In this document: positions 27,781 to 55,213 of the stretch, piece by piece
Numbering within the stretch: position 1 is the first letter of the stretch
How the letters are laid out: each line of letters begins with the position of its first letter
From: Taxillus chinensis
Lineage: Eukaryota; Streptophyta; Magnoliopsida; Santalales; Loranthaceae
Assembly (NCBI GenBank): GCA_023512835.1
Contig: CM042092.1
Coordinates: forward strand, 24,417,543-24,481,542
Reading direction: 5' to 3'
Length of the DNA: 64,000 nucleotides
Program-made: the position numbers and the translations under genes
Notes under the pieces: model-generated
What the model saw: the letters and a program-made list of their open reading frames with translations, nothing else
Told to the model about the DNA's origin: nothing
The model's database searches: none

Positions 27781-27850
27781 TGGTATCGGAGTGATTTTTT
27801 ATGAAATATAACCAAATGACACGAGAATAGTCATACTGACATGACTCACA

Positions 27851-28606: not shown

Positions 28607-30003
28607 CACGGCTATTGGTTGCAAGTGGGTGTTCGCAGTTAAGGTTAATCCCGATAGAACTGTTGCTCGGTTAAAAGCCCGTCTTGTTGCTAAAGGTTAT
28701 ACCCAAACATATTGTGTGGATTATTCTGATACTTTCTCTTTTGTTGCCAAATTGATCTCTGTTCGCTTGTTTATCTCTCTGGCCGCTACTTATCATTGGC
28801 CTTTGCATCAATTGGATATTAAAAATGCTTTTCTTCATGATGATCTCCACAAAGAGGTGTATATAGAGCAACCTTCGGGTTTTGTTACTCAAAGGGAGTC
28901 TGAGAGTGTTTGTTGTCTTCGAAAATCTTTATATGGTTTGAAAAAATGCCCTCGTGCTTGGTTTGGCAAATTTAGTCAAGTTATTAAAACATGGGGCATG
29001 ATTAAGAGCTAGCATGACCATTCAGTGTTCTACAAGCAATCAACCAGTGGTCTCATCCTTTTAGTGGTATATGTGGATGATATTGTTTTCACTGGTAGTG
29101 ATACTTTAAGTATTTCATCTAAGTCCTTTCTTTGTACTCAATTCCACATGAAGGACTTGAGAATGCTCAAATATTTCTTAGGTGTTGAGGTTACAAGGAG
29201 CAAACGCGGTATCTTTATCTTTCAGAGGAAATGTCCTGGATTTATTAATAGAGACAGGCAAATTGGGAGCAAAGCCTTTTAGTGCTCCAATGACTCTAAA
29301 TATGCATCTCACAGGAGAGGGGACACCATTTAACAACCTTGAGAGATATCGAAGGTTGGTTGAGAAGTTAAAATATCTTATTGCCACTCGTTCAAATATT
29401 ACCTATTCAGTCAGTGTTGTTAGTCAATTTATGCCATCTCCAACAGTTGATCATTGGGCAGCATTGGAGTAGATTCTGTGTTACTTAAAAGGAGCACCTA
29501 GACATGGTCTCTTATACACAAATCATGGACACACACAAATTGGATATTTTTCAGATGCAGATTGGGCAGATTGTCCAGTGGATAGAAGATCCGTCACAGG
29601 TTATTGTGTCTTTGTTGGAGGAAATTTAATCTTATAGAAGAGTAAGAAACAAAATGTTGTGTCACATTCTAGTGCTGAGTCAAAATATAGGGCCATGTCA
29701 CAATTTGCATGTGAGATAATGTGAATCTTTTATCTTTTAAATGAAATTGGCTTAAACATTTTTATACTAGCAAAATTGTGATGTGATAATCAGCAGCACT
29801 TCATATTGCCTCAAATCCTGTGTTTCATGAGAGAACTAAGCATATTGAAAATGATTGTCATTTCATCTGCGAGAAAATTTAACTTAGATTATGTGAAGAC
29901 TAGAGAACAATTAGATAATATATTCACTAAAGCTCTAAACGGGATTCGAGTGGCTTATCTTTGGAACAAGTTGGGCTTGATTAACATCTATGCTCCAACT
30001 TGA
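28607..30003 (+). pseudogene. Reverse transcriptase and RNase H of the small copia, disrupted
   Basis: The RT begins at GCKWVFAVKVNPDRTV, continues [18 protein letters not shown] and LDIKNAFLHDDLHKEVYIEQ, then after a stop near 29010 VVYVDDIVFTGSD (the catalytic YVDD) and LRMLKYFLGVEV. A frame change near 29200 leads to RYRRLVEKLKYLI. RNase H follows as GYFSDADWADCPVDRRSVTG, and DYVKTREQLDNIFTKAL near 29900 ends the polyprotein. At least four stops or frameshifts make it non-functional. Confidence 0.8.
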
Positions 30004-30009
30004 GGGGAA

Positions 30010-30190
30010 TGTTATTATATTATAATAGAATAATTCATGAGATTGTAATATTCTATAATTAGTAATTTGTGAGAATTAAGGATATGATATAATTGAGATT
30101 GATTATGATTGATATCCTAATTATATCTTTCTATAGATAGGTTTCTTCTTTCTTATAAATTTCTACTCATACATTGTATTTTATATATCA
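30010..30190 (+). repeat. 3' LTR of the small copia
   Basis: Starts TGTTATTATATTATAATAG after the polypurine tract TGAGGGGAA and aligns with 27579-27760. It lacks the last ~15-18 bases of the left LTR. Confidence 0.68.
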
Positions 30191-30661
30191 GTTCTTGGAG
30201 TTCCTCCCACAACAATCAGTGCCTCGATCTAGATGATGACCTTCTTATTGCGCAATGTAAAGGTACTCATTCTTGTGTTGGTTGCCCTCTTGATCGTTTT
30301 GTTTGTTATACTGGTAATGTCCGCTCTCGGTATCCTATGTCTCACTTTATCTCCACAGCCAAGTTATCACCTTGTTTCTTTACTTTTGTTTTTTCTGTTT
30401 TGTCTTTGGTTGTGCATTACAGTGTTGCTGAAGCTCTTGCTTATCCTGGGTGGTGCCAAGCTATGAACGATTAGATGCACACTCTTCATACTAATGTCAC
30501 TTGGGATCTCACCCAGTTACCCGCTAATAAACATATTGTTGGGTGCTGATGGATTTTTACTGTGAAGGTCCATCCTGATGGTTCCCTTGAAAGATTAAAG
30601 GTTCGCCTGATAGCTAAGGGATATATGCAAGTCTATGGTGTTGACTATGATGATATTTTTT
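30191..30661 (+). mobile_element. Outer copia element, piece 2: integrase C-terminus to start of RT
   Basis: The frame reads GNVRSRYPMSHFISTAKLSP, SVAEALAYPGWCQAM and, with two stops, WIFTVKVHPDGSLERLKVRL and YGVDYDDIF, the junction between the integrase linker and RT palm of a copia polyprotein. It is cut at 30661 by the SIRE-like element and resumes at 44380 with SHVAKISSVQVFLSLAVHYG. Confidence 0.8.
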
Positions 30662-31842
30662 TGATGGTCCCTTGGAGCCTAGAGGGGGGTGAATAGGCTC
30701 TTATCGAAACTCTTTTGATTCTCTTATGACACAACGCTTATCTAGTTAAGTGATAGAACCACTGCGGAAGATAACTAGATAGTGGAAGTATTTTGTTTTA
30801 TTATCAAAAGATAAATACAACAAAATAGAAGCAAGACTCTTTTACACACTGTTTACAAAAGGATTCACACACTAGCCTATATTATGTCTTTGAACTCTTG
30901 TGCATACACAGGGTTGATTCAGGCTCGCTCGCACTCACATTTTCAAATGTACAAGTATGAATATTTATAAAAACATTCCTAAGAGACAAACTTGGAACTT
31001 ATAGTTTCGGAATGCGTTCAGCACTAACTATTCCTCGGTAATCTCTCTGCCTTGACTGCTGTGGTTTGTGGAGATCAAGATCTTGGGTTTGAAGAGTATA
31101 AGTGCCTTTGTGAGTTCCCAAGTATAATTAAAGTTGTGTCCACATATCCGGGTGATCCACGTGTAAGATTCTTCAGGTTCTCAACAAGTTTGTCTTACAT
31201 CGGGACACCACGAGCTGATAACTTTATATGCGGTAAGTTGAAGTAGCATCTTCTTGGTCCGGTGTAATTTTCCTTACTCCGTTGCTAATGAAGCTCGAAA
31301 CCTTACTCCGTGTCAGTGGTTGCTTACTCCGTATCTATTTGGTACTGGAATCCTTAGTCCGTGTCAGCGCTTCCTTACTGCGTGTGAATGAGAAGGTCGG
31401 AGTGCTTATTCCATATCAGCGCTTCCTTACTCCACATGTAAGTTCCTTACTTCGTACGAGTTTCTTACTCCGTGCGAGTTTAAAGGATCGGATGGCTTAC
31501 TCCGTACTAGCACATCCTTACTCCGCATGAGTGAGTGGTCCGGATTCCTTACTCCGCATCTGGTTTCCTTACTCCGTGTGAATAAAGACTCGGGTCCTTA
31601 TTCCGCATCAGTACTTCCTTACTCCGTATGTATGGGGGACTTGGTTATTTACCAAGTGTTTGACGACACTCACTCTCGTCCGGATTAGGATTATGTATCC
31701 TGTCCTTAGCTTTGCTCTTACGAGTGTATCTCCGGATTAATAACATTTCTTCTGCAATGATTAAAGACAAAACACAAAAGATCTCAAATAAAATTACATA
31801 GGGCTTTATCAGCATTATCCAAATTCTGGGCTTGATCCAACA
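30662..31842 (-). repeat. 3' LTR of SIRE-like copy 1
   Basis: Reads TGTTGGATCAAGCCCAGAAT to CCAAGGGACCATCA in element orientation. 31260-31640 holds about 15 variants of CTTACTCCG on the plus strand (nine exact), spaced about 20-35 bp. Confidence 0.88.
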
Positions 31843-31973
31843 ATCTCCCCCAATTATGGATATGCCTAAACCCTTTGTAATCTGATCTGGTAAGATAACA
31901 TACAGAATACACATCACAACCATTTTCATTTATCCGCAACAGAATATAATTCAGCCTTTATACAAGATTTTCA

Positions 31974-34698
31974 TTAAGGTACATAAGGCTTACTATACTT
32001 GAAGATCATTGTTGCTGCTTTCTCTCTAAGCTCCATTGTCTGCTTCATCAAATAAGTGGTGTGTTGGCTCCAAGATTTGTCCACACTTAAGAATGACTTG
32101 ATGAAGTAACAGACAAAGGCCCCGCAGCTATCTCCATCTGGCTGTTGTGGCATTTGCTTCTTGCCCCGGAATGTCGCCTTCAGTTTCTCAGTTGGACTCA
32201 AAGGAGTGATGCCCAACTTTTCATATAATCCGGCTTTCTTCACAGCTTCAGTCAACCTGAGACACAGTGGTTCCTATCGATTCTTTCTTACATACTGCTC
32301 TACAACCTGATGAGAATCAATCAGAATCATCTATTTGGACTGAATCATGAAGACAACCATCATGAAATGTGGCGACATGATCTGGTATGGAATGAGGATA
32401 GTTGAGAGAGTTCTCCATGGCTTGTTATCCTCAGCAGTTCCGTCGATAAAGGACTGAATGATATCTACACTGGGAAGATAGCCCTCATTCCAGCACGGCA
32501 GAACTTCAAACAAGTGGCCGTCCTTGTACAGAGATGGAAACAGCCTCATCTCCATTTTAGCAGCCCTAGAGAAGTTGTCAATGTCGTCTGTTGTAAAGAG
32601 GCCTTTCTCCGAACAAAGGGTCCGAATGTCGTCCGGGGAGAAGGGGTACAGGTCAGAGAGACATCTTCTCTCGGTAGTAGATGCAGCATAGGAAATCATT
32701 GCCTTACGCATGCTTCCGTCCGCATCAAGAGGGTCACACGCCGCGTATGATGGGAGAAAGGTGTCAGCTGCGGATGGAGAGGATGGAGGAAGAGCTGCAC
32801 TCGAGGAGCTTGGATGAGAGAAGCGGCTACGTTTGGGGATTTGAACTCCCTGAAGCAATGAAGAGGCAGGCCGCTTCTCAGCACGAGTGGAGGAATGTGA
32901 TGTAGGAGAAGCAGAAGGATCAGATGACACTCTCTCCCCCGGTTTGGCAGATCGCCGGGGAGCAATGGGAGGGCGAGCCATCGTGTGCGCCAGGTCCGCA
33001 AAGGTGGTAGACAAGGAGTGGACGGACGAGGCGACTAGGTCCATCTTCTGTTCCATGGAAGTGGAGGAGTCGGTGAGGGCGGAGAGGAGTTGGGCGCCAA
33101 GAGCATCAACCTTGGCGGCGATGGAGGATATTTGGGCGCTATGAGCTTGGGCGTGGCGGTCCAGCTGGGCGGAGAGCACAGCGTCGGAGTGGACCGTGCC
33201 AAAAGAAGCATGCCCAAGGGCCAACTCTAGAGCTTTGGAGGACTCCCCCACATGAACAGGAGCAGGAGTGCACTGGGCAGAGGAGTCCGCAGGAGTATCA
33301 GCAGCAGCAGCAGAAGGGGCATCCGGAGCAGTAGAGGCATCCGGAGCAGCGGACCCGCTTTGACCATATAGGTCAACAACAGGAATGGCGACAGCAGGAG
33401 AAGAAGGTCCAGCCTTAGCAGGGGAAGGACTCCGTGCGGCATGGACCGGGCTGGAGGGGTTAGGGAACGGCACATCTGGAATGGAGGCCGGCGTAAGAAA
33501 GCCTTGGTCCAAATTCCAGATGATCATGGTCTCCGGGGATTGGGTATGACGAGTGTAAAACACCCGGAGATCGGTGTCAGGAATGGAGGCGGTGTGGGCA
33601 AGGCTGAAACGGAGCCAAAGGTCCGTTAAGGTGTCGGCGGAGAGATGGTCAAGGTAGGCTCGGGGTTGAGGTAGGGGACGCAAAGGAGCTTCCGGAATAG
33701 ATTCCGGGACATCAGCAATGGCGGCAGCAACGGCAGTATCAACCGCAGCAGCAATGGCGGAAGTGGAGGGAGTGGGAACATCCGCAGCAGAAGGGGCTGA
33801 GGAAATAGCTTTAGGGACACTGCGCTGAGATGACCCTGCAACCTCGGAGGGTTCGACACGGACGCTGTGCTGGGAGGCCCGAGAAATGGAGGGGGCAGCA
33901 ACGGACCGAATCCGGGAGGATCGGTAAGCAGAGCTGACGTCAGGGGCATGACTGTCGGAGGGGTCACTAACAGAATTGCCTTGTTGTTTCGTGGCAGGGA
34001 GAAGGCGGAGAGCTGCAGAGGGACGGCGGGCTGTCATGTTCCCATCAGGCGTAAGATAGCGAAGGTAATAAGCCGGAGGAAATGGAACAACATCATAGCG
34101 GACGAAATGGTCCGGATGAAGATGCCGGAAGACAATGCTTAGAATGCGCCCGAAGGAATGGTTCTTGGGTCCATTCTCGCGGCGATCGGAACAAAAACGT
34201 CCCCACAGTCCATTGGAAGACCTTCGAAAACGCCGTACATAGCTAGAAGAAGATCGTACGGAACAGAGTCCAGAGCGGAAGTGCGAGCCAGTAAACATCG
34301 ACTCAGTATGATCGCCATACAGCGATAGCGACCTTGGAAGGACTTCACCTTGTATTCCTTGCCTTTATAGGTGCAACCCATAGAAGCCGCCATGGGATCG
34401 GCATCGGGCGGCTGTGGTTCACCAGGGGTAGATTGAGAGCGGCGCGGACAATGGCGGGGGTGATTAGGATGGATTCACCGCGAATAGAGGAGATGATGGA
34501 GTCGGTGGTACGACGGATCTGTTGGTAGAACTCGAGAATGTCATCTATAAGAAGATCGACAGGATTGGAGATCAAGTTGAGTATGTGAGAGGCTTAGTAA
34601 GAGGGCGAAGATGGAAAAATCAGTCCGGAGGGTTGGAGACAGCGCTCAATTGACCGGATGGCCGGGATTGACGCGGAAAGAGAGGTTTTGGGTGCCAT
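31974..34698 (-). pseudogene. Extra 3' ORF of SIRE-like copy 1: transposon-type N-domain, disordered middle, Ulp1/C48-like cysteine protease
   Basis: It starts at ATG 34698 and ends with TAA at 31974. N-terminal part: DLLIDDILEFYQQIRRTTDS, IRGESILITPAIVRAALNLP and SMGCTYKGKEYKVKSFQGRY, resembling the putative plant transposon protein domain (N-x-L-x-IRG-x-x-I pattern). The middle (about 34050-32900) is Pro/Ala/Ser-rich with one heptad-like helix (LDRHAQAHSAQISSIAAKVD and following). The C-terminus has LIPY then HF, then LIDS, then PQQPDGDSCGAFVCYF: these are the His, Asp, Gln and Cys positions of C48 deSUMOylating-type proteases. Defects are a TAA near 34596, a frameshift near 34150 and TGA codons near 32331 and 32256. 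A 655-codon stretch (34298-32331) is still open. It occupies the env-like position of SIRE elements; its function is not established. Confidence 0.75.
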
Positions 34699-36375
34699 TG
34701 TAGATGAAAATTGAAGGGCGAGAGGGAGGCGAGGTCTTGGGGATTAAAGGAGCAACGAGAGTTTTATGGATTTGAAAAGGGTAACACTCGTGCTTCGCAG
34801 GAATGACCAGAATATATAAGACCGAGTCCGTGAATGTCAGCGGGTCTAGGAATTTGGCGAGTGAAACAGTAAACCGCTTGACGGGCTGATGTCATTAGTC
34901 ATGATATCGGTGCGCCTCCGAATTAAAAGATAACGTGGAGACGGCATGACCAAGTAAAGGTAACAGCTGTTTGCCTTCCTGGGGAAGTGTGTGCATCCCA
35001 AGACATGCATTCAATGAATCATCATTATTCCTCCTCAAAAGCACGCGATATATAATAAGACATGGATTATCGCAATTTGACAGTGTCAGGAGTACGGAGG
35101 AATGAACCGACAATCATCCGGAATCAACGATAGTCGAGTGACGAGTATCCGGATGAAAAGTAGACCGTGTCCGTAGTAACAAAGTGCGGTGAGGGAGAAG
35201 TAGATTCCTTTGCTGTCAATAAGTCGAAGAGAAGAGAAGTACCACAACACTTCAAATCCAAGACTATGGACTAGATTTATCGATAAGGTTGCAAACAAAA
35301 TCTGAACCTGTAGCTTCACAAAAAAATAAATTGAAAGTACAAAAGCTTAACAGGCAAGGATTAGTACGGATAGGAGAAAATAGTCAGTGAAGAGCTATAT
35401 AATCCGAACTAATGAGAAGCAGAACTTATGCATTACAAAGAATGAAATAGACATATACATACTAGAGAATGATCAATGTGACTGAATCAGGGCATATGTC
35501 AGATAATAAATACACAAGTTCATATAGGTCAACATAGCGAAACCGTCCTGCTGAACGACATAGCTAAGATTAATTAAAAATCATATGATTTGACCAAACT
35601 AGGATTCATGAGTGAAAAATGAGGAAACGGACACATGTCAAAAGCAATCAGTTGATTATCCGATTAAAATGCATGGTTGAAGAAAAAAAACATCCAAGCA
35701 TGCCTCAATTCTGTTTCAACAATGCATGTCCAGTCAGATCCGGAAGTAAAGGTTTAGAGGAGGAGTATCTGAGACATATTAGGGGGTTATTACTGAGGTA
35801 ATAGATGAAGCTTAGGCTCCCCCGTAGATCATTCGATCCTCTCAATGAAAGGCTCTCTCTCGAATAGACAGCCAAGAAAGAGGTCATGAGACATATACAA
35901 GGGGGATTACTCAAATAATTTATAAAGCATTTTCTCCCCCGTAGATTGTGCAATCCTCTTGGTAGACCTTTCCAACTTAAAGAAATTCAGCACTGTCTAT
36001 CTTTTTAGGAAACTATACTTCAAAAGCTGATCAAACTGCGATTGTGTATTCATCCACCAGGCATTCCGAGCTAACCCATTTCATTTCTTCAACTATACAT
36101 GTTAATAGAGTAATCTAAATGAACAGGCATTTGTCATGTGGTGATCAGTGGAAATTAAGATCATGAAACCAGAATGAGGTTAATCATATAAACTTTAATC
36201 ATGTTTGCTTAAATGACTTGATCAGGGAAAGCTAAGCGTCCTCCCACTATGAAGTTGATATCAATATCAGAGGCATGAAGCACGTTAAACAGTAAGTATG
36301 ATCAACATTAAGATCAGTATGTATCTACTGTTATCAGTAAAAGCACAATGCATGTTGGGTAATTTAAATGTGAGA
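34699..36375 (-). other. Spacer between RNase H and the extra ORF in SIRE-like copy 1
   Basis: About 1.7 kb with no long frame on either strand. It includes purine- and pyrimidine-rich stretches (for example TCTCCCCCGTAGAT repeats at about 35815 and 35930, which on the minus strand read as polypurine tracts, as multiple PPTs do in SIRE elements). In copy 2 the same interval is only about 230 bp. Confidence 0.55.
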
Positions 36376-39191
36376 CTATGCAGAGAAGTCAAGCATACCT
36401 AATCGGAAGAGTAGTTCAGAGAATCTTGCATCAGGTAGGGGCTTTGTAAGTATGTCTGCCAGTTGATCTTCAGTAGCAACATGTTCTAGTGAGATGTGAC
36501 TTTTGAGAACATGGTCGCGTATGAAGTGATACCTGACCTCAATATGCATCGTCTTAGGGTGCATGACAAGATTATTGCTAATAGCAATTCGTGTTAGTGT
36601 TGTCGCGATAGAGTGGAATAGATGACATGTTGAAACCGTAGTCAGTAAGTTGACTTTGCATCCAGAGTAGATGTGCGCAGCAACTCCCAGTAGCTATATA
36701 TTCCACCTCAGTAGTAGAGGTTGATACGGAATTCTGCTTCTTACTGAACCATGAAATTAATCTATTTCCAAGAAACTGACACGTACCACTTGTGCTTTTC
36801 CCTGTCGATCGACACCAGTCGAAGTCAACATCGAGTATCCGGATAAGGTGAAGTTGGACTCCTTTAGGTACCGAGTCCCAAATTCATCGTTACCTTGAGA
36901 TACCTTAATATCCGTTTAACATGAAGCATATGTGACTCCATGGGATTCGCATGATATCGTGCACAAATGCAAGTTGCAAACATAATGTACGGGGCGACTT
37001 CTTGTAAGATACGACAAGGATCCTATCATCCCTCCGTGATCGGTCACATTTACCGATATTCCATCCACATCAGGATCTAACTTGGCATTGGCCTGGCATG
37101 GGAGTTTTGACGGGAGATGAACCTTCCATACCAAACTTCTTAATAAGATCGCGAGGGTACTTAGCTTGATTAATGAAGATTCCTTCCTTCAATTGTTTAA
37201 CTTCAATTCCAAGGAAGTAGGACGGTTCTCCCATCATGCTCATCTCAAACTTGCTCACATCAACTTTGCAAACTCTTCACAAAGCTTCGGATTTGTTGAT
37301 CCGAAAATGATATCATCCACGTATATCTGTACGATTAGAGTGTGTCCTTTCTCTTTTCGTAGAAATAAGGTGGTGTCTATCTTCCCTTTTTAGAAGTTGT
37401 GAGCAAGTAGGAATTCGACAAGTGTGTCGTACCGGGCTCTTGGAGCTTGCTTAAACCATATAAAGCTTTCCAGAAGCTTGTAGACTAGATGTCTCTGCCT
37501 TAGGTTCAATGAAACCGGGAGGTTGTTCAACGTACACCTCCTGTTGAAGATCTCCATTCAGAATGCGCTCTTGACATCCATTTGATAAACTATGAAGTTT
37601 TCATATAAGCATACCCCAGAAACATTCGGATTGCCTCAAGTCTTGCTACCGGAGCAAAGGTCTCATCATAGTCTATTCCTTCTTCTTGACGATATCCTTT
37701 GGCTACCAGTCTGGCTTTGTTCCGGATTACTATTCCATCCGTATCAAGCTTGTTCCGGAACACCCATTTAACTCCAATGACTTCTTGAGACTTAGGCCTT
37801 GGTACTGTAGAGTCCACACATTTCTCTTAAATTGATTCAGCTCTTCTTGCATGGCTTCTATCCAATTCGAATCCTGAAGAGCTTCATCTACCACCTTTGG
37901 TTCTATTTGAGATAGAAAACACGAGTAAAGACACACGTTGAAAGTGGCTGCTCTTGTTCTTACACCGGTGATAGGATCACCAATCACTTGATCGAGGGAT
38001 GGTTTGGGTCCATCTGTAATTACGTGCATTTGATGGTTGATCTTGAATAATTTGAAGCTCTGCCAGATTAGGTGGTTAAGGTATATCTGCTGGTTGAGCT
38101 TCTTCCGGACCAGATGTTTCCGTATTAGAAGGTACGGTAGAACTAGGTGGTTCTTCAACACTGTTTCTTTCAGTGATAACTGGTCCGGACGGGCTTGAAG
38201 GTGCTCCGGAATTTTGGGTATCCGAAGGAGTATGTCCGGAGCTTAATGGTAGTCCTGAGTCCGAATCATCCGTAGCATCATCCATATAATTTCTTTGTGC
38301 CTCGCTGATGCCACGTGGTTGGTGGAATGTGTATCAGGAACATTCATAAACTTCGAATAGTCGATGTTCTTGTCCGGGACACTATACGTGAGAACTTGAA
38401 GAAGCAACTTTTGACCAATCAAGATTAGTTTCATCAAAGGTCACATGGATAGATTCTTCAACTTTAAAAAGTTTTCTATTGAAGACCCGATAAGCCTTGC
38501 TATGTAATGAGTACCCGACAAAAATCCCGTCATCAGATTTTGGTTCAAATTTATTCCGGGTTTCTTTGCCATTTATCAATATATAGCAAGTACACCCAAA
38601 AGCTCTGAAATGTGAAATTGAAGGCTTTCGTCCTCTCCACATCTCATAGGGTGTTTTCATGGTAGATTTATTTATTAGAGTTCCGTTACGAACATAGCAG
38701 GCAATGGACATAGCTTCGACCCATAGGCGAGAGGAAGTGTTGCCCTCGCTAACATAAATCCTAGCCTCGACTAAAGTACGATTCTTCTGTTGAGCTACCC
38801 CATTTTGTTGTGGAGTTCGCGCGGAGAGAAGTCATGTTGACTGCCTGTTCGAACAATATGATCTCATATCTGAAAAATCAAATTCTGTACCATGATCACT
38901 CCTGATGCACTTTATGCTTAGTCCTTGTGAGTTGCTTATCCAGTTGAAAAGATCTGCAAGATGCTCAAAAGTTTGATCCTTTGATTTCAGGAACATCACC
39001 CATGTGTATCTGGTGAAATCATCGATAACCACAAGGGTGTATCTCGCACTAGCCAGCGAAGGAACAAAAATAGGACCACAGAGGTCCATATGAAGAAGTT
39101 GTAGAGGAGCAGCTATTGAATTAACTGATTTGCTCTTAAAGCTATGTTTGGTCTGTTTGCCAAGTTGGCATTCTCGACAGAGAATGTCTCT
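36376..39191 (-). pseudogene. Pol of SIRE-like copy 1: integrase, RT, RNase H (5' end lost)
   Basis: Reading on the minus strand, 39191-38800 has CRECQLGKQTKHSF (zinc ligands), HMDLCGPI, YTLVVIDDFTRYTW and IRSDHGTEFDF of the integrase core. 38711-38382 is the integrase C-terminus (MKTPYEMWRGRKPSISHFRA). After a linker, 37817 gives [17 protein letters not shown] of the RT, 37320 the catalytic YVDDIIFG, and 37258 FEMSMMGEPSYFLGIEVKQL. RNase H ends at 36376 (HIEVRYHFIRDHVLK, ADILTKPLPDARFSELL). Short deletions around 37600-37440 and several stops disable it. Everything upstream of the integrase zinc finger, including protease, is replaced by the gypsy element at 39192. Confidence 0.85.
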
Positions 39192-39575
39192 TGTCACGGA
39201 CCGAGGCTTATCCTAGCATACTTAGGCCATTTTGGGGTATTTCCCCTTTGTAAAGTGTTGTACTTAACTTATAGAGTAAGTTGTAGAGATTTTAGATTTT
39301 GATCATATATGACGTCTCCTGGCGACATAGCCAGAAACGTGTTAACATCTATATGTAGGGGAGTGATGTTGTAAAGCTTTCAAGCATTCAATACAATCGT
39401 TTGTTGCCTTCGTTTAATCGATCTTCCGCTAAGCGCTTCCCTACACCATTGCTTTACAACGGATCGATGGGTTCCGATCCAAATACGACGAGTTAGGCTG
39501 ACCTAGCGTTCCTTCGCACGGGTGGGAACTAGGTGCCGCACGGGTTAAGCTGCTATAAAGGCTGACCCCGTGACA
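39192..39575 (+). repeat. 5' LTR of the nested gypsy
   Basis: Starts TGTCACGGACC and ends CCCCGTGACA, with 8-bp terminal inverted repeats TGTCACGG/CCGTGACA. TGGTATCAGAGC, the tRNA-Met primer site, follows two bases later. Confidence 0.85.
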
Positions 39576-42478: not shown

Positions 42479-42487
42479 GAGTTTATG

Positions 42488-43131
42488 CGGATCGAAAGAA
42501 CTTGTCATTGATTTGAGGCCGAGTGTAGTGTTCATTGTCAGTTTTTAGCTCTAGAATGAGCTTGCCGAATCTTCGATAGATGCTCTCAAGGGATTCGCCA
42601 GGTTTGTGATTGAAACTCTCAAAGTTACGGAGAGCACATATCACGTTTCCATCCTGGGACCGACTCCCCTCATAGAGGATTGTCGGTTTATCCCAGACGA
42701 CTTTCTTTGTCGCGCGACCCTGGACGTCCGTGAAAGCCTCGAAATCCAAAGACGATGTAACGTAAGCTAGAGCCTTTTAGCGCATTGCCAGGCTCTTTCA
42801 TCGTTAGTAAGTTCGGCATCCGTCTTTGGCCTTCTAACTCCATGTTCTCCGATAGTAATCGGAATTGGAATCTCCGATGAAGACAGGGCCACATGAGATG
42901 ATCATGGCATACCATAAACATCTTCATGCGAGCTTTCCCTCTGGGAGAAAAGCTCGGTGTGAATTTGGGCGGTTTTGTCAGAGTAAAACCAGAACTCCGT
43001 GGTTGAGGAGTGGCGGCAGCAGCAGGTTGAGGTGGGTCGACGTTTTCACTGCTGCTTCGATTCGGGATGGGCTCTTGTCCACCTCCTGAGTTAAGGTGAG
43101 TGTTGAATAGCATATTGCTTTCTTCGGCCAT
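42488..43131 (-). pseudogene. Gag of SIRE-like copy 1, N-terminal part
   Basis: ATG at 43131 starts MAEESNMLFNTHLNSGGGQE. Continuing are a Pro-rich segment, then KPPKFTPSFSPRGKARM and, after a frameshift near 42750, FEAFTDVQGRATKKVVWDK, FESFNHKPGESLESIYRRFG and NDKFFRS, typical of UBN2-type copia gag. It is cut at 42488 by the deletion junction with the nested gypsy. The equivalent in copy 2 starts at 46679. Confidence 0.8.
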
Positions 43132-43192: not shown

Positions 43193-44374
43193 TGATGGTC
43201 CCTTGGAGCCTAGGGGAGGTGAATAGGCTCTTATCGAAACTCTTTTGATTCTCTTATGACACAACACTTATCTAGTTAAGTGATAGAACCCTTTATGGAA
43301 GATAACCAGGATAGTGGAAGTATTTTGTTTTATTATCAAAAGATAAATACAACAAAATAGAAGCAAGACTCTTTCACACTCTGTTTACAAAAGGATTCAC
43401 ACACTAGCCTATATTATGTCTTTGAACTCTTGTGCATACACAGGGTTGATTCAGGCTCGCTCGCACTCACATTTTCAAATGTACAAGTATGAATATTTAT
43501 AAAAACATTCCTAAGAGACAACCTTGGAACTTATAGTTTCGGAATGCGTTCAGCACTAACTATTCCTCGGTAATCTCTCTGCCTTGACTGCTGTGGTTTG
43601 TGGAGATCAAGATCTTGGGTTTGAAGAGTATAAGTGCCTTTGTGAGTTCCCAAGTATAATTAAAGTTGTGTCCACATATCCGGGTGATCCACGTGTAAGA
43701 TTCTTTAGGTTCTCAACGAGTTTGCCTTACATCGGGACACCACGAGCTGATAACTTTAAATGTGGTAAGTTGAAGTAGCATCTTCTTGGTCTGGTGTAAT
43801 TTTCCTTACTCCGTTGCTAATGAAGCTCGGAACCTTACTCCGTGTCAGTGGTTGCTTACTCCGTATCTATTTGGTCCCTGGAATCTTTAGTCCGTGTCAG
43901 TGCTTCCTTACTCCGTGTGAATGAGAATGTTGGAGTGCTTATTCCGTATCAGCGCTTCCTTACTCCGCATGTAAGTTCCTTACTCCATACAGTTTTCTTA
44001 CTCCGTGCGAGTTTAATGGATTGGATGGCTTACTCTGTACTAGCACATCCTTACTCCGCATGAGTGAGTGGTTCGGATTCCTTACTCCGCATCTGGTTTC
44101 CTTACTCCGTGTGAATAAAGACTCGGGTCCTTATTCCGCATTAGTACTTCCTTACTCTGTATGTATGGGGACTTGGTTATTTACCAAGTGTTTGACGACA
44201 CTCACTCTCATCCGAATCAGGATTATGTATCCTGTCCTTAGCTTTGCTCTTACGAGTGTATCTCCGGATTAATAACATATCTTCTACAATGATTAAAGAC
44301 AAAACACAAAAGATCTCAAATCAAATTACATAGGGCTTTATTAGCATTATCCAAATTCTGGGCTTGATCCAACA
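43193..44374 (-). repeat. 5' LTR of SIRE-like copy 1
   Basis: Nearly identical to 30662-31842, including the CTTACTCCG array at about 43800-44160. It borders the TTTTT target duplication at 44375. Confidence 0.9.
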
Positions 44375-44379
44375 TTTTT

Positions 44380-45228
44380 CTCATGTTGCTAAAATTTCGT
44401 CCGTTCAGGTGTTTCTTTCCTTAGCTGTTCATTATGGATAGACTCTCCATCAACTTGATGTCAAAAATGCCTTTTTCTACAGTGACCTTGCTGAGGAGGT
44501 TTATATAGAGCAACCACCTAGTTTTGTTACTCGGGGGAGAATCTGGTATATCGTCTTCGAAAGGCTCTTTATGGGTTGAAATAGTCTCCATGGCCTACTT
44601 TGGCCGATTCAGTACGACTCTTGTTTGCTTCGGTATTCGGCAATGTGAAGTTGATCATTTTGTGTTTAGCTCCTTTTTTACTGTCGGTTGTGTTCTCTTG
44701 GTTATAAATGTTGATATTATTATTATGAGTAGTGACAGGGAAGACATTCAACGTTTGAAGCATTTTCTCCAGACTGAGTTTTGCACCAAGGATCTCGGTC
44801 GTTTGTACTATTTCTTGGGGATAGAAATGGCTTACTTTGGTTCCTTTATCTCTTTGTCACAATGAAAGTATATGATGGATATACTTGATGAGGTCGGGTA
44901 TTTAGGAGTCAAATCTCTTACTTCTCTTATGGATCCCAATGTCTGGTTGGACTCAGAACATGGTAATTTATTGCATAATCCTGCTCAATATCAAAGATTA
45001 GTTGGTAAGTTAAATAATTTGATAGTAACTAGACCCGATATTTTATTTGCCTTAAGCACCGTAAGCCAGTTTATGAGTGCTCCTCGCATTACCCATTGGA
45101 TTGCAGCATTACGGATTGACAAGTACTCGAAGGGAGCACCAAGACAGGGCCTATTGTTTACTAAGCAGGATAATCTTGATATTTAGGGTTATTCTGATGC
45201 TAATTGGGAAGAATGTCTGATTGATAGA
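44380..45228 (+). mobile_element. Outer copia element, piece 3: RT to RNase H
   Basis: Continues piece 2: LHQLDVKNAFFYSDLAEEVY and IEQPPSFVTR of the RT fingers/palm, then LLVINVDIIIMSSDREDIQR, where the catalytic YVDD has decayed to NVDI. Next are HFLQTEFCTKDLGRLYYFLG, QRLVGKLNNLIVTRPDILFA and GYSDANWEECLIDR of RNase H. Cut at 45228 by SIRE-like copy 2. Frameshifts and stops are frequent, more than in the elements inserted into it, consistent with it being older. Confidence 0.8.
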
Positions 45229-46615
45229 TGTTGGATCAAGCCTAGAATTTGAATGATGCAGATAAAACCCTATGTAATTTGATTTGAGACATTGCATGTT
45301 TATTCTTAAGTTGTTGTAGAAGATATGATCTTAATCCGGAAGTTCACTCGTGAGAGTAAAGCCGAGGACAGGATACATAATCCCGATCCGGACAAACGTG
45401 AGTGTCGTCAAACACTTGGTAAATAACCAAGTCTACATTTCATACGGAATAAGGATCATTCGTGTGGACCAAACACTTAAAGCTATGGACTAAGGAATTT
45501 GCATTTAACACCTTAATAGACTAAGTCAAATAAATGCGGAATAAGAATCCTAGTCAACATCTAGCACGGAGTAAGAGACAATTATCGCAAAATAAAAAGC
45601 TATGTCTTCCACTCAAATGAACTAAGGACAAGAAGACACGGAGTAAGGAATCCGAGTCTTCCATACATGCGGAGTAAGGAATGACTTGTATGGAATAAGA
45701 ACCCAAGTCCTTTATTCGCACGAAGTAAAGAAAATAGATACGGAGTAAGGAATCCAAACCTTTTACTCATGCGGAGTAAGGATGCGCTGATATGGAGCAA
45801 GCCATCCGACCTTTCAACTCATGCGGAGTAAGCTCTCCGGACTTCTCTTTCATATGGAGTAAGGAAGCATTGGCACAGAATAAGGATTCCAGTATCAAAG
45901 TGACATGGAGTAAGTAACCACTAACACAGAGTAAGGATCCAAGTTTTATTAACACGGAGTACGGAACTTTACAATGGATTAAAAAGACGCTACTTCAACT
46001 TATCATCTTCGCATTCAAAGTAGTCAGCTCACTGCGTTCCGATGTAAGACAAACTCGTTAATAACCTAAAGCATCTTACATGTGGATCACACCGATATGT
46101 GGACATAACTTTAACTGCACTTGGGAACTCGCGAAGACACTTATGCTTTACAAACCCAAGATCTTGAGCTCTACATCCGCAACAATCAAGGCAGAGAGAT
46201 TTTCGAGGAACAGTCAATGTTGCACGTTGCTCGGAAGAACAAGTTCCAAAGATGTTTTTCACGGATGGCTATATATATTAACACTTGTATATTTTTATTG
46301 TGCATGCAAGAATAGAGTGTTTAACTGTGTGTATGTGCATGTATGTACAAGAGCTTATAGAGATATTATTGGCTAGTGTGTGAGTAATTGTAAATAGAGT
46401 GCTTGAGAGTTTTCAGTAGATCGAATAGCTTCATTAGCTTTAATCTGCTATATTTTCTTGTATTTATCTCTTGATGATAAAATAAAATACTTCCACTATC
46501 TGGTTATATTCTGCATTGATTCTATCTCTTAACTAGATAAGTGTTGTGCCAGAGGCGAGCGAAGAGTTTTTGATTAGAGCCTATTCACCCCCCTTTAGGC
46601 TCCTAGGGACCAACA
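45229..46615 (+). repeat. 5' LTR of SIRE-like copy 2
   Basis: Starts TGTTGGATCAAGCCTAGAAT and ends CTCCTAGGGACCAACA; 1387 bp, about 200 bp longer than the LTRs of copy 1. 45435-45970 holds about 19 variants of CGGAGTAAG, the same motif in the opposite orientation to copy 1's listing. Confidence 0.85.
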
Positions 46616-46617
46616 AG

Positions 46618-48989: not shown

Positions 48990-51900
48990 TTGCAGGAGCA
49001 TCTCTGGAATTCATTACCAGACCACTTGAAGTTAAAGATCAATCAAAGCAAGTGGATACTCGATAGTGGATGCTCCGAACATACGACGGGTGATCAGTCT
49101 CTGCTCGTAAAAGTTGCTGACAAACGAGGCCCATCCGTATCAAATAGTGACAACAATAAAAGTAAAACTATGGGATATGGCACTTTAACCAATGGTTGTG
49201 TATCAATTACTAAGGTTACCCTAGTCGAAGGTTTGAAGCATAATCTGCTAAGTGTCAGTAATCTATGTGACAAAGGATTTACTGTTTCCTTTATGTCCAA
49301 CACCTGCACAATTAGAGAAAACTTATCCGGAGATATTAAGTTATCCGGATTAAGAGATGAGGACATATATTCAGTGGTCTTAAGATATAATTCTTCTGAC
49401 CCTGTATGCTTCCTCACTAAAGCATTAAATGAAGAAAGTTGGCTATGGCACAAGCGTTGCACTCATTTAAATTTTAAAAATTTGTCTAAATTAGCATTGC
49501 TTGGCTTGGTCAATGGTCTGCCCAAACATAAATACTACAGAGACTCTCTCTGTCGAGAATGCCAACTCGGCAAACAGATCAAGCATAGTTTTAAGAGCAA
49601 ATCAGTTAATTCAATAACTACTCCGTTGTAACTTTTTCATATGGATCTCTGTGGTCCCATTTCAATTGCTTCTCTTGCTGGTGCGAGATATACCCTTGTG
49701 GTTATCGATGACTTCACCAGGTATACATGGGTGATGTTCCTAAAATCGAAGGATCAAACCTTTGAACATTGTGTAAATCTCTTCAACTGGATAAGCAATT
49801 CACAAGGATTGGGCATTAAATGCATCAGGAGTGATCATGGTACGCAATTTGACTTTTCTGATATGCGATCATATTGTTCTGAACAGGACATTCAGCACGA
49901 CTTCTCTGCAGCTAGGACTCTACAACAAAACGAAGTTGCTGAGCGTAAGAATCGCACTTTAGTCGAAGCTAGTAGATCAATGTTAGCAGGGGCAAAGCTT
50001 CCTCTCAGTCTATGGGCTGAAGCTATGTCCATCGCATGCTATGTTCAAAATAGAACTCTTATGAATAAGGTTACCATGAAAACACCCTATGAGATGTGGA
50101 GAGGCAGGAAGCCATCAATCTCTCATTTCAAAGCTTTTGGGTGTGCTTGCTACGTGTTAAACAACGGCAAAGAGGCACGGAGAAAATTTGAGCCAAAATC
50201 CGATGATGTGATCTTTGTCATATACTCATTACATAACAAGGCTTATCGCATCTTCAATAAAAAACATTTAAGAGTTGAAGAATCTATCCATGTTGATTTT
50301 GATGAATCTAACCTTGATTGGTCAAGTATAGGATCTTCAAATTCAAATGTGCAGGATCATACGGACACAATTGATTATTCTCAGCTCCAACATGTTCCTA
50401 ACACAACTCTTGATGAATCACCGAGCACAAGAGATGCAAGAAGAAATGTCACTGATGATGCTTTTGAAGATTCGGACTCAGGACTTCCACTCAACTCCGG
50501 ACAAATCGATATGGACATCCATAACACTGGAGAACCTTCTAGTCTGTTCGGACCAGTTAATACTGAAAACCACAGTGCTGAAGAACCTCAAAGTACTTAT
50601 GGAACTGTTCATCATACGGATACAACTGGCTAGGAAGAAGTTCAACCAGCCGATATACAAGATCCACCCAATCTGGCAGAGCTTCAAATCGTTGATTACT
50701 CACCACCACTTGCGCAGAACTATAGGTGGACTCGAAATCACTCATCAGATCAAGTGATTGGTGATCATACTGTTGGAGTAAGAACAAGGGCAGCCACCTC
50801 CAACTTGTGTCTCTACTCTTGTTTTGTATCATAGATAGAGCCAAAGGTGGTGGATGAAGCCCTTCAAGATTCTAACTGGATAGATCTTTATGCAAGAAGA
50901 GCTTAATCAGTTCAAGAGGAATGAAGTGTTGACGTTAGTACTAAGGCCGAGGTCACTACAAGTCATTGGAGTTAAATGGGTGTTCTGGAACAAATTGGAT
51001 ACTGATGGAATAGTAATTCGAAACAAAGCACGACTGGTAGCCAAAGGATATCGTCAAGAAGAAGGCATTGATTATGATGAAACCTTTGCTCCAATAGCTA
51101 GACTTGAGGCGATCCGAATGTTCCTGGTGTATGCATCCTATGAAAACTTTATAGTTTATCAAATGGACGTCAAGAGCGCTTTTCTGAATGCAGATCTTCA
51201 AGAGGAGGTTTATGTTGAACAACCTCCGGGCTTCGTTGAATACAAGGCTAAACATATGGTATATAAACTACAGAAAGCCTTGTACGATTGGCAAGCAGCT
51301 CCAAGAGCCCGATATGACACATTGTCGAAATTCTTGCTCAAACACAACTTGGAAAAGGGAAGATAGACACTACGTTATTCCTACGGAAAGAGAAGGGTCA
51401 TTCTGTGATCGTACATATATATGTGGACGATATCATTTTCGGATTCTCAAATCCGAAGCTTTGTGAAGAGTTTCCGAAGTTGATGACTGGCAAGTTTGAA
51501 ATGAGCATATTGGGAGAATTATCGTACTTCCTTAGAATAGAAGTTAAACAAATGAAGGATCAAATCTTCATTAACCAAGCTAAGTACACATGGGACTTAA
51601 TCAAGAAGTTTAGAATGCAAAACTCAACTCCCGTGAAGACTCCCATGCCAGTCAGTGCCAAGTTAGATCCTGATCTTAATGGAGAATCAGTAAATGTGAC
51701 TGGAGAATCAGTAAATGGAGAATACAGAGGGATGATAGGATCATTGTTGTACCTTATAATAAGTCACCTGGATATTATGTTTGCAACTTACATTTGTGCA
51801 AGATATCAGGAGAATCCCAAAGAGCCACACATGCTTCATGTAAAACGGATATTGCGGTATCTCAAAGGAGCAATGAATTTGGGACTTTGGTATCCAAAGG

Positions 51901-52385
51901 AGTCCAACTTCTCTTTATCCGGATATTCAGATGCTGATTTTGTCGGGTGTCGCATCGACAGGAAGAGCACTAGTGGTACTTGTTAGTTCCTTGGAAACAG
52001 ATTGATTTCATGGTTTAGTAAGAAGTAGAATTCTGTATCAACCTCTACTGCTGAAGTGGAATATATAGCTGTTGGGAGTTGCTGCGCACAGCTTCTTTGG
52101 ATGCAAAGTCAACTTACTGACTACGGGTTCAACATGACATCTGTTCCACTATACTGCGACAACACCGGTCGATTGCCATCAGCAACAATCTTTGTCATGC
52201 ACCCAAAAACAAAGCACATTGAAGTCAGGTATCACTTCATCCGAGACCATGTTCTCAAAAAGCACATATCTCTCAAACATGTTGCTACGGATGATCAACT
52301 TGCAAACATACTCACCAAGCCCCTACCTGATGCAAGATTTTCCAAACTACTCCTCAAATTAGGTATGCTTGACCTAACTGCATAG
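48990..52385 (+). pseudogene. Pol of SIRE-like copy 2: protease, integrase, RT, RNase H
   Basis: The protease motif WILDSGCSEHTTGDQSLL lies at about 49048, with LVEGLKHNLLSVSNLCDKGF after it. GAG-pre-integrase follows (LWHKRCTHLNFKNLSKL, CRECQLGKQIKHSF). The integrase core is at 49641-50200 (MDLCGPI, VVIDDFTRYTWVMF, IRSDHGTQFDF, AARTLQQNEVAERKN, with QQNG changed to QQNE). RT is at 50890-51700 ([42 protein letters not shown]). RNase H is at 51900-52385 (GYSDADFVGCRIDRKSTSG, HIEVRYHFIRDHVLK, LTKPLPDARF). Breaks are stops near 49630, 50633, 51366, 51986 and 52029 and a frameshift near 51370. GESVNVTGESVN near 51690 shows a 21-bp internal duplication. Confidence 0.85.
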
Positions 52386-52611
52386 CTTTTAATTTATTCA
52401 TTCAACAGTATTTCTTTCAGAACATGCATTGTATTTCATGATGAACGTTAGACACTTACTGTTCTTACTGCTGATCATCTTTACTTGTGTCATGCATTGT
52501 GTTCTGATAATTTTATCATATTTTCATATGGGAGGATGCTTGCGTTTCCCGACTGAAGTCGTTTAAGCTAACATAATTAAAAATATATGAATAAAACCTC
52601 CTTAGGATTTC

Positions 52612-55213
52612 ATGATTCAAATTTTTATCTCTCACCACATCCTGAACCTAGTCTCTGATCCTGTCGATCTCCTCATCGACGATATAGCTGAGTTCTACCG
52701 CACAATCCGATGCACCACCGACTCCATCCGTTCCATCGTTAGGAGTAAATCCATTGTCACCACCCCGAACTTCCTTCGTACCTCTCTCTATCTTCCTTCT
52801 AGTCCTCATCAGCGTCCGAACCCAGAAAAAATGGAAGCTTCCATGGGCTGCGCTTACAAAGGGAAGGAATACAAGGTGAAATCCTTCCAGGGTCGCTACT
52901 GATGTTTGGTGACCATTCTGAGCCGGTGCCTTTTGGATCACACAATAGCCCTAGACTCTGTCCCGTATGACCTGCTTCTGGTCATGTACGGAGTCTTTGA
53001 GGGTCTCCTGATGGATTGGGGGACTTTCTTGTTCCGGCTTGGGGAACAACCCGAAGAATCAATCCTTTAGCGGATCACTCGGCATCGTTTTCTAGCACTG
53101 CGTCTGTCCCACTTCAACGGACATGGTGTCATTCCCTTTCCCCCAGGCTTTCTACATCTGCTATCTTACGCCTCGAAGGGAATCTCGACCGTTGCCGGCC
53201 CTCCGGTGCTGTCCGTCTCCTCCCTGCTCCGGAACAACGGTAGCTGTTGGTGACCCAGGCGCTCTACCCCGTTAGTTACCCACCGGTCCTCACGATTCGG
53301 TCTGTGCCGCACCCTCCATCTCCCGAGGCTCCCAGCTAGCGTTCTTGACCCATCCGAGGTCGGGGCCGTCCCGGCAAGTCACCCCCCTGATTCTCCACCC
53401 TGCCGATGATGTCCCTGCCCCATTATCCCACTGTTGCTACTGCTAATGTCCCTACACCCGATTCTCCCACTGTTGCTGCGGTAGTGGCTGATGTCCCAAC
53501 CTCTCCTCCGGAAGCACCTTTGCCCCCGCTTCCTCAACCTCGAGACTACCTAGACCATCTCCTCGCTGACACCATAACGGGCCTATGGTTCGTTTCATCC
53601 TCCCACGCCCACCATTCCGACAATGACCTCCGGGTGTATTATACTCGCCATACCAAAACCACGGAGAAATGATCATCTGGAACCTGGACCACGCTCCTTA
53701 CGCTGGCCAACATCTTGATGTTCCTTTTGTTGTTACCTCCGGAACGGCCCATGATGCAGAGGTTCCTTCCCCTGTTAAGGTCGGGTCCTCCTCTCCTGCT
53801 GCAGCAATCCCTATTGTTGACCTCTTTGGTCAAAGTGGTTCTGATGCCCCACATGCCTTTGATGCTCCAGGTGGCCCCTCTACTGCTGCTGACCAACCCC
53901 TCTCTCCAGCTGCTGACTCCTCTGCCCAACGCACTCCTGCACCTCTTCATGCGGGGGAGTCCTCCAAAGCCCTGGAGTTTGGGCTTGGACGTGCCTCTTA
54001 TGGCACGGTTCACTCCGACACTGATCTCTGCACAGCTAGACTACCACGCCCAAGTCCAGAGCGCCCATATTGCCGTCATCGCCGTCAAGGTTGATACTCT
54101 TGGCGCCCAACTCCTCTCCGCCCTAACTGACTCTTCCACTTCCATTGAGCAGAAGATGGATCTCGTCACCTCTTCCGTGCACTCATTGTCTAGCTCTTTC
54201 GCAGACTTGGCGCATACGATGGCTCATCCTCCTATCGTTCCTCGGCAATCTACCAAAACGGGGGAGAGAGTGTCATCTGATCCTCCTGCATCTTTCTCAG
54301 TTTGTGCTAGTAAGCGTCCTGCATCTACACTGCTTCTGGGAGTATCTATCCACAAACACAATCGCTTCTCTCAGCCCAGCTCCTCCAGTGCAGCTCCTCC
54401 TTCGACCTCTCCATCCGCGGCTGTCATCTTCCTCCTATCATGTGCAGATCGTGATCCACTTGATGCGAATGGAAGTGTTTTCAATGAAATGGCTAAGTAT
54501 GCCGCGTCTACTGCTGAGCGAAGATGTTTATCCAATATGTATCCCTTCTCTCCTGAAGATATTTAGACTCTACGTTTTGAGAATGGCCTGTTTACAACAG
54601 ATGACATAGATAACTTCTCTCAGGTAGAAAAGATGGAGATGAGGTTGTTTTGTCTCTGTATAAGGACAGTCACTTGTCTAACGTCTTGCCATGTTGGTCT
54701 GATGGCTATCTTCTAGACGTAGCCCACATCCGGACCTTCATTGATGGAACTGCTGAGCATAGCAAGTCATGGAAAAATCTTTCCTCCGTCCTCATTCCGT
54801 ACCGGGTCAAGACGCTGCACTTCATGCTGATTGTCTTTCTGATTCCGTCAAAACAGATGCTCCTGATTGATTCTCACCAAGTTGTGGATAAAAAAATTAG
54901 AAAAGATCAACTGGAGCCATTGTGTCTTCGACTGACAGAAGAAGTAAAGCAATCTGGGTTTTATCAAGAAATGGGCCAAACTCCTTTGGCTCCTACTGAA
55001 AAATTAAAGGCGGCGATCCGGAGCAAGATGCGAGTGCCTCAACAACCCGATGGAGAAAGCTGTAGAGCCTTTGTCTATTTCTTCATCAAATCTTTCAAAA
55101 GGGTAGATGAAGACTGGAACAACATCCAAGACTACACTTTGCAGCAGACAATGGAGCTTTGAGAGAAGGCAGCAACAATGATCTTCAAGTATGGTAAGTC
55201 TTATGTACCTTAA
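52612..55213 (+). pseudogene. Extra 3' ORF of SIRE-like copy 2: transposon-type N-domain plus Ulp1/C48-like protease
   Basis: Homologous to 34698-31974 throughout. 52645-52900 has DLLIDDIAEFYRTIRCTTDS and SMGCAYKGKEYKVKSFQGRY. The middle is a Pro/Ser/Ala-rich region with the same helical segment (DYHAQVQSAHIAVIAVKVDT). 54480-54600 has AERRCLSNMYPFSPEDI. The C-terminus, 54650-55213, has LIPY, then HF, then LIDSHQVV and PQQPDGESCRAFVYFF. The His, Asp, Gln and Cys positions are kept, although the Gly after Cys is Arg. Stops (about 52900, 53070, 54564, 55160) and frameshifts near 53670-54060 break it. The N-terminal ~35 codons present in copy 1 are missing, lost with the shortened spacer. Confidence 0.72.

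Follow-up and report, generated by a model that had tools for sequence, protein, structure and literature searches.

Sireviruses, a group of copia-type long terminal repeat (LTR) retrotransposons, carry an env-like open reading frame (ORF) whose function is without experimental proof and whose role "remains highly controversial" (PMC3414828; this and the other papers named here by PMC accession are cited for the available parts of their text). Extra ORFs at the 3' end occur in 74% of SIRE elements and form 19 dissimilar groups; they are heterogeneous, with no domain common to most of them, and matches in CDD, listed in an additional file, were obtained for 21.4% of the extra ORFs (PMC6317226). 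A parallel that we draw on is found among DNA transposons: in the KIU-bearing VANDAL Mutator-like elements (MULEs), the Ulp1-bearing genes belong to an anti-silencing group and are linked with VANC genes, and the role of Ulp1 is unsettled (PMC13317346). In this report, we analyze a 64,000-nucleotide stretch of the genome of Taxillus chinensis (contig CM042092.1, positions 24,417,543 to 24,481,542; hereafter, the window), in which one copia-type LTR retrotransposon is present twice. The env-position ORF of these Sirevirus-like elements almost certainly ends in a domain of the Ulp1/C48 (clan CE) cysteine protease family.

We found no earlier report of a C48 domain in an LTR retrotransposon in the open-access literature, and an unremarked entry may exist in the additional file of PMC6317226. 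An earlier note on this sequence, whose author was not aware of such a domain as a described SIRE feature, fits that literature, a scope that leaves most subscription journals and supplements outside.

The env position of the two window elements

Both window copies have a C48 domain (PF02902) on the strand of pol, downstream of RNase H and before the 3' LTR. Copy 1 is on the minus strand, and its env-position region (31977-34593) lies between RNase H, which ends at 36379, and the polypurine tract (PPT) at 31845-31852; copy 2 is on the plus strand, and its env region spans 52606 to about 55300. The curated cut-off of PF02902 is 20.7 bits, and the matches score 27.1 bits (E 4.4e-6) for the copy 1 piece at 31977-32273 and 24.4 bits (E 2.9e-5) for the copy 2 ORF at 54614-55159. 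In copy 1, the sequence ..LIPYQIMSPHF.. stands just before the end of a 677-aa frame (32331-34364), which has no Pfam match by itself, ..LIDSHQ.. is in a short open piece (32277-32330), and ..PQQPDGDSCGAFVCYF.. is in the piece at 31974-32273. Spacing is identical in the two copies, with 17 residues from His to Asp, 64 from Asp to Cys, and Gln at Cys-6. The earlier note's observation of a C48 signature, in the order His, Asp, Gln, Cys, in the env position and on the pol strand thus holds for both copies, each above the Pfam cut-off.

The same note spoke of one long extra ORF, which is correct in part. Copy 1 does have a long frame of 677 aa, in which a Pro/Ser/Ala-rich part is followed by a coiled-coil-like part (by eye) and then by the N-terminal half of C48. 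The ORF is not continuous, having two in-frame stops within C48 and its N-terminal part in other frames. Copy 1 is dead, with one stop before the Asp piece and the other before the Gln/Cys piece. In copy 2, a frameshift occurs upstream of C48, and Arg replaces the Gly after Cys.

PF02902 was absent from ten control proteins (env pieces, off-frame ORFs, RNase H, and two antisense ORFs overlapping the copy 1 domain). Because of these controls, and because the domain recurs under selection genome-wide (see below), we do not regard the C48 match as a chance event. Searches of NCBIfam returned no match. The env N-terminal pieces (34142..34593) gave just a subthreshold match to PF20167 (Transposase_32; E 0.11, 12.8 bits versus a cut-off of 45), which we do not use as evidence. 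A protein search of 5.8 billion sequences gave no match, either among 64 candidates at E<=0.01 or among 90 at E<=0.1, and viral contigs yielded five pattern matches and no relative.

The features of the two copies are as follows.

30662..31842, minus strand: 3' LTR of copy 1 (TGTTGG...CCATCA), 96.0% identical to the 5' LTR
31843..31852, minus strand: polypurine tract TGGGGGAG (31845-31852) plus AT, with the AT/TG attachment site, copy 1
31977..32273, minus strand: C-terminal open piece of C48, copy 1, with Gln (Cys-6) and Cys; PF02902 match
32277..32330, minus strand: short open piece of C48, copy 1, holding Asp (LIDS), between two in-frame stops
32334..34364, minus strand: 677-aa open frame, copy 1, ending in the N-terminal half of C48 with His
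34142..34593, minus strand: conserved N-terminal part of the env-like protein, copy 1, decayed into two other frames
34600..36160, minus strand: linker from RNase H to env, about 1.5 kb, copy 1
36379..39212, minus strand: pol remnant, copy 1 (integrase, reverse transcriptase, and RNase H pieces), 80% nucleotide identity to copy 2 over 3.1 kb
42486..42776, minus strand: gag piece, copy 1, 81% amino acid identity to the copy 2 ORF that matches PF14223
43179..43192, minus strand: AGTGG/TATCAGAGC junction and primer binding site, copy 1, CAAGTGGTATCAGAGC exact (CA is the LTR end)
43193..44374, minus strand: 5' LTR of copy 1
45225..46616, plus strand: 5' LTR of copy 2, about 80% identical to the copy 1 LTR in aligned blocks
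49632..52385, plus strand: pol of copy 2 (integrase, reverse transcriptase, RNase H); rve 4.7e-10, SH3_retrovirus 6.4e-23, RVT_2 6.1e-45
52606..52902, plus strand: N-terminal part of the env-like protein, copy 2
54614..55162, plus strand: C48 domain, copy 2, 182-aa open frame; His 69, Asp 86, Gln 144, Cys 150

Copy 1 is bounded by LTRs (30662-31842, 43193-44374) that are 96.0% identical (K 0.033), which corresponds to roughly 1.3 million years at a substitution rate of 1.3e-8 per site per year, a rate that is not host-specific. AAAAA flanks this copy on either side and is a possible target-site duplication, although of low complexity. Pfam matches in copy 2 occur in the order gag, gag_pre-integrs, rve, SH3_retrovirus, and RVT_2; its RNase H piece has no Pfam match and was placed by homology to copy 1 and by eye.

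The earlier note had also called the element a SIRE-like copia, and five of eight Sirevirus features support this description. The copia gene order of gag, integrase, reverse transcriptase, and RNase H is present (Pfam gives the first three in copy 2; RNase H is placed as above). Junction motifs for Sireviruses, defined in PMC2829016, have the form CA/ATTGG (or AGTGG)/TATCAGAGC; copy 1, with CAAGTGGTATCAGAGC, is exact for the G variant, and copy 2 has two mismatches. The PPT of the window family, TGGGGGAG-AT/TG, differs by one mismatch from the Sirevirus 12-mer AGGGGGAG-AT/TG of the same paper. An inverted repeat surrounds the PPT/LTR junction of copy 1, and 0 of 1000 shuffles were as good, although such a repeat also occurs in almost half of other copia elements (PMC2829016). 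The fifth feature is a long LTR (1.18 kb) with a polyC integrase signal, CACCCCCC, about 20 bp short of its end; near the end of the copy 1 3' LTR, the polyC-rich, integrase-signal-like motif reads CACCCCCCTCTAGGC.

Two features are lacking. Clustered multiple PPTs precede the 3' LTR in every element of PMC2829016, and a palindromic LTR repeat was reported for 13 elements there. We found a single PPT in window copy 1 and no extra NGGGGGAG within 500 bp in any of 28 window-family loci. The copy 1 LTR showed no palindromic repeat; instead, the nonpalindromic CGGAGTAAG occurs nine times at 216-561. The eighth feature is multiple gag zinc knuckles (PMC3414828), and an intact CX2CX4HX4C is in neither window copy, two degenerate knuckles being visible by eye in copy 2. 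By these features, the window family is Sirevirus-like, and because of its single PPT we use this term rather than filing it as a Sirevirus.

Other sequences are present in and around the two copies. Other DNA at 55355-60340, starting TGTCACGCCCC, breaks copy 2 right before its PPT and contains minus-strand Ty3/gypsy-like reverse transcriptase and integrase ORFs (by eye) at 57661-60338. Copy 1 is split between gag and integrase by a sequence without a copy 2 counterpart (39192-42493). By eye, part of this insert resembles an LTR on the plus strand (TGTCACGG...CCGTGACA), and after it come CAAGTGGTATCAGAGC at 39574 and a coiled-coil-like ORF at 39605-39979; a BLAST comparison of the window with itself revealed no second LTR for that stretch. 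Copia fragments at 27582-30474 include duplicated blocks, namely 27874-28228 versus 28252-28606 (92%) and 27582-27761 versus 30010-30189 (91%).

The domain across the genome

We searched the window's own plant genome (520.9 Mb; G000 in locus coordinates) by using the copy 2 domain as the query. The search gave 7676 candidates, 150 of which were scored, and all 150 match at E<=1.2e-72 with 65-83% identity (the query itself aside). The 30 best protein matches were fetched as loci L001-L030, L001 being window copy 2. In 28 of the 30, a PPT/attachment 16-mer (within two mismatches) lies 145-195 bp past the domain, and LTR homology starts there; we therefore place the env-C48 ORF directly inside the 3' LTR. 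Beyond window copy 2, which is interrupted, this holds for 28 of 29 loci, the miss being L022. The earlier note had named an ORF outside the LTR-bounded unit in other copies as an outcome that would contradict its proposal, and these 28 loci have it inside.

Catalytic positions are largely retained in the 30 loci: His in all, Asp in 28, Gln in 23 (six others have stops, and one has His), and Cys in 27 (three have Tyr). Nine loci are free of stops, and the eight further ones (L001 having been tested already) were put to Pfam. PF02902 was the top match in all eight and was above the cut-off in six, with a best E value of 6.7e-8. One stop-free copy, L016, which carries His at the Gln position, was compared with the PDB and gave seven matches at E<=10, all of which we take to be clan-CE chains (ChlaDub1, adenovirus proteases), at E 0.13-0.24; His, Asp, and Cys are in register in the two alignments shown. 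Taken together, L016 and the family B described below match clan-CE structures at E values of 0.017-0.32.

The env-like ORF ending in C48 comprises about 770-850 codons. We read 20 loci with more upstream sequence and checked the frame in the 11 that have a recognizable env N-terminal part. In five of these (L032, L036, L037, L042, L050), that part is in frame with C48, and the common frame has three to eight stops over 773-849 codons (2.3-2.5 kb), compared with 25-50 in each other frame. Together with the position before the PPT and LTR, this frame sharing agrees with the earlier proposal that the env-like ORF is fused to the protease domain. Reverse transcriptase and/or RNase H was found upstream in the same sense in four of the eight copies read that far (L046; L050/L055; L039/L056; L036/L057). 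The linker of about 1.5 kb between RNase H and env is missing from copy 2 and present in nine of 20 other copies (75-84% identity), so we do not take it for an insertion into copy 1.

Some C48 copies are paired, about 0.5-2 kb apart, as at L048 (1804-2310, 3788-4306), G000:C5:28926380/28926927, and C7:55114827/55116911. From these pairs, the 3' region may have undergone partial tandem duplication.

A comparison across copies of nonsynonymous with synonymous change (dN/dS), one of the checks that the earlier note suggested, gave 0.24 for C48 in the window pair (bootstrap 0.14-0.40, 167 codons). Elsewhere in that pair, the values are 0.19 for gag, 0.17 for integrase, 0.12 for reverse transcriptase, and 0.23 for RNase H, and those of the two env parts upstream of C48 are 0.34 and 0.52. 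The 435 pairs among the 30 loci have a median of 0.25, and 99% are below 0.5; shifted-frame controls for this set gave 0.68 and 0.95. The ratio drops from 0.38 (dS 0.15-0.25, 71 pairs) to 0.18 (dS over 0.5, 53 pairs), and the sole pair with dS below 0.15 has 0.54. Such a drop with distance is expected when lineages are under selection as they replicate and decay neutrally afterward. The C48 domain is passed on together with the element, and, judged from these ratios, purifying selection kept it while the element multiplied.

A separate search of the genome with PF02902 scored 150 of 4308 candidates, all of which exceeded the cut-off. Family B (L058, L059, L060; 85-91% alike) is defined by three of these matches, which score about 53-56 bits and were selected because their frames are open, with PF02902 E values of 5.5e-15, 3.5e-14, and 1.3e-14, all above the cut-off. 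Its motifs are HW, IFDS, and Gln at Cys-6, and dN/dS among the three copies is 0.16-0.26. All three have the exact Sirevirus 12-mer, AGGGGGAG-AT/TG (AGGGGGAGATTG), about 330-410 bp past the ORF, with two to three extra AGGGGGAG copies within 250 bp before the junction, that is, the multiple-PPT hallmark. In one copy, integrase (60%), reverse transcriptase (50-80%, three pieces), and RNase H (68%) lie upstream. When the L058 protein was used as a query, 143 candidates were scored and yielded 144 matches, each at E<=1e-60. The 13 PDB matches of L058 at E<=1 are SENP7 (2), SENP1 (5), ChlaDub1 (5), and a "hypothetical membrane protein" (1); two of the ChlaDub1 entries are named "membrane thiol protease." The LTR-side sequence of family B contains repeated AGACTCGTAGA.

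The C48 domains of family B and the window family are not similar by BLAST (E 0.6). Profile comparison relates them with 96.4% probability (E 1.4e-9, 28% identity over 104 columns), and 30 column-shuffled profile controls reached at most 2.2%. Five further PF02902 places were fetched (L062-L066). Two of them form family C (L062, L065), whose C48 domains match that of the window with E values of 8.5e-16 and 4.6e-13. The downstream 12-mer is exact at L062 and has one mismatch at L065, and neither has extra PPTs. Integrase and reverse transcriptase are upstream of L065; upstream of L062, the 4.3 kb read contains only a relative of the env N-terminal part. No Sirevirus junction was present in the 2 kb examined at L063 and L064 (together, family D) or at L066, all of which may be other elements or host genes. 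The motif at L063 (G000:C4:19778100) is HYVLVRVDL...PQQPDQFSC, and L064 is at C2:9806300.

The order His-Asp-Gln-Cys, the His-Asp distance of 17, and Gln at Cys-6 are common to all three families (except for the His of L016). Two further families of this genome, both very divergent, thus have a homologous C48 in the corresponding position. Families A (the window family), B, C, and D come out as separate groups in a tree of 13 rows, with their order open, a result compatible with either single or repeated capture.

Possible roles of the env-position protein

The best overall explanation, which we rate slightly above an even bet, is that the element makes a selected clan-CE protease, most likely a deconjugase of SUMO or another ubiquitin-like protein, that serves the element itself. 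What is known of the family points to SUMO, or else another ubiquitin-like modifier, as the most probable substrate, and we regard SUMO deconjugation in support of the element as evenly balanced between true and false. The active protein would be a ubiquitin-like-protein (most likely SUMO) deconjugase, which its variable N-terminal and coiled-coil-like parts would bring to targets. There it would take SUMO off host chromatin or silencing factors, or off the Gag or integrase of the element, and this removal would favor expression or integration of the element. The env-position protein would not be a fusogenic envelope.

Several observations weigh against this reading. Both window copies are broken, at least one stop lies inside the domain in 21 of 30 loci, and Cys is lost in three. 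Pfam scores in the window family are modest (17.6-33.1 bits), and two of the eight further stop-free copies fall below the cut-off. Comparison of window pieces with solved structures gave no relevant match (three and one unrelated), the E values of L016 to clan-CE chains are just 0.13-0.24, and family B, nearest to SENP7 and SENP1, reaches 0.017 at best. An AlphaFold model from three window rows only was uninformative (pLDDT 36). In six of 11 copies, C48 is out of frame with the env N-terminal part, and upstream pol was not found in four of the eight copies read that far (L034/L052, L037/L051, L040/L054, L042/L053). The C48 domains of L063 and L064, which have no Sirevirus junction within 2 kb, are also relatives of the window C48 (E 1.4e-10 and 8.9e-12). 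Choosing the 30 loci by protein similarity biases their dN/dS downward, which does not apply to the window pair. Finally, a preference for SUMO over NEDD8, ubiquitin, or self-cleavage is extrapolated from relatives, and, according to a section heading of PMC6084981, silencing in Arabidopsis does not depend on the binding of MOM1 to SUMO.

A different role for an active enzyme would be that of a maturation protease that cuts the element's own env-like protein or Gag, not host modifiers. Clan-CE proteases of large DNA viruses cut their structural polyproteins in this way, and C48 is fused here to a protein that a maturation protease could cut. Pfam C5 (adenovirus endoprotease) is a weak second match, below its cut-off, for one window piece and four of eight copies, and the PDB matches of L016 include 4piq and 4wx4, presumably adenovirus proteases. 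Against this role, the element already has what we take to be a copia aspartic protease region (a DSGC motif in the ORF at 48981-49631, which has no Pfam match), and the best-scoring family, B, is nearest to SENP7 and SENP1; we consider this role unlikely. It is improbable that catalysis is dispensable altogether and that C48 is a binding module for SUMO or SUMO-like partners, or an inert C-terminal folding domain. Trp is usual after the catalytic His, and Phe takes its place in 29 of 30 window-family loci; moreover, the Gly after Cys is replaced in ten of 30, and Cys is of average conservation (97 of 170 columns are more conserved, a comparison blurred by the decay of dead copies). However, the catalytic order and the two spacings persist in three families, HW is kept in families B and C, and selection acts on the domain.

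Two further explanations were considered. As passenger DNA, C48 would be a fragment of a nested DNA transposon or host gene, functionless or outside the element. C48 is known cargo of plant MULEs (PMC13317346), and the genome has at least 150 C48 places over the cut-off, some with no Sirevirus junction nearby. Nevertheless, place, strand, and PPT spacing are constant in 28 of 30 loci, the env N-terminal part is in the C48 frame in five of 11, dN/dS is well below 1, and the domain is common to three families. We therefore rejected a nested MULE or CACTA fragment on the grounds of PPT spacing, dN/dS, and frame sharing, and hold passenger DNA of any kind to be very improbable. We give scarcely any credence to a true envelope-like gene with a transmembrane segment, to which the C48 likeness would be incidental. 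According to PMC3414828, predictions of transmembrane and coiled-coil segments are a shared feature of Sirevirus env-like genes, and the most hydrophobic 19-residue stretches of the ORF score 1.65 and 1.77 in the two window copies. This stretch, however, coincides with a predicted core strand on which the catalytic His lies (ILIPYQIMSPHFMMVVFMI), on which ground the envelope was rejected, and the Pfam, profile, and spacing evidence also favors C48. Earlier "transmembrane" predictions for Sirevirus env-like proteins might likewise reflect the strand around the catalytic His.

A broader form of the deconjugase reading is more doubtful, and we offer it tentatively: the env-like gene of Sireviruses at large could be a fast-evolving clan-CE ubiquitin-like-protein protease whose hypervariability hid the domain, whose "transmembrane" segment would be the core strand around the catalytic His, and which would serve to counter SUMO-dependent silencing or to control proteins of the element itself.

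Comparison with known systems

A selected, recurrent C48 domain in the env-like position would offer a defined, assayable activity for an ORF of disputed role. It would also extend element-borne Ulp1 from DNA transposons and nematode non-LTR elements to plant LTR retrotransposons, and would suggest that deconjugation of ubiquitin-like modifiers aids very different mobile elements.

The closest known elements are the Sirevirus/SIRE (Maximus) elements (PMC2829016, PMC6317226), with which those described here share the LTR-primer binding site junction, the AT/TG site, the polyC signal, the inverted repeat at the PPT, LTRs longer than 1 kb, and an extra ORF between pol and the PPT (eORF-3'F). Multiple PPTs are shared by family B, whereas the window family differs in having a single PPT. 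The extra ORFs of SIRE elements are described as having no domain that most of them share (PMC6317226), whereas those found here carry a C48 protease domain.

As an accessory product, C48 is also found in KIU/Kaonashi of Arabidopsis VANDAL MULEs and as ULP1 in melon, rice, and grapevine MULEs (PMC13317346), which are DNA transposons rather than LTR elements and do not carry it in an env position. A Ulp1-like cysteine protease is likewise encoded by the nematode non-LTR retrotransposons NeSL and Utopia, but these are animal elements in which it is N-terminal in the polyprotein (PMC4640811). Ginger1 transposases and oomycete Cryptons have a C-terminal or separate C48 with a proposed role in transposition, and differ in being DDE or tyrosine-recombinase DNA elements (PMC2836005, PMC3212892). 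An orchid Ty3/gypsy element with an AlkB m6A demethylase ORF is similar in being a plant LTR element with an extra enzyme that erases a host mark, although the enzyme is an RNA demethylase and the superfamily is another (PMC12786077).

Among enzymes, SENP/Ulp1, ChlaDub1, and adenain have the same clan-CE order of His-Asp-Gln-Cys, and family B is nearest to SENP7 and SENP1. These enzymes are cellular, bacterial, and viral, respectively, whereas the window family is borne by a retrotransposon and differs in having Phe after His and a distance of 64 from Asp to Cys.

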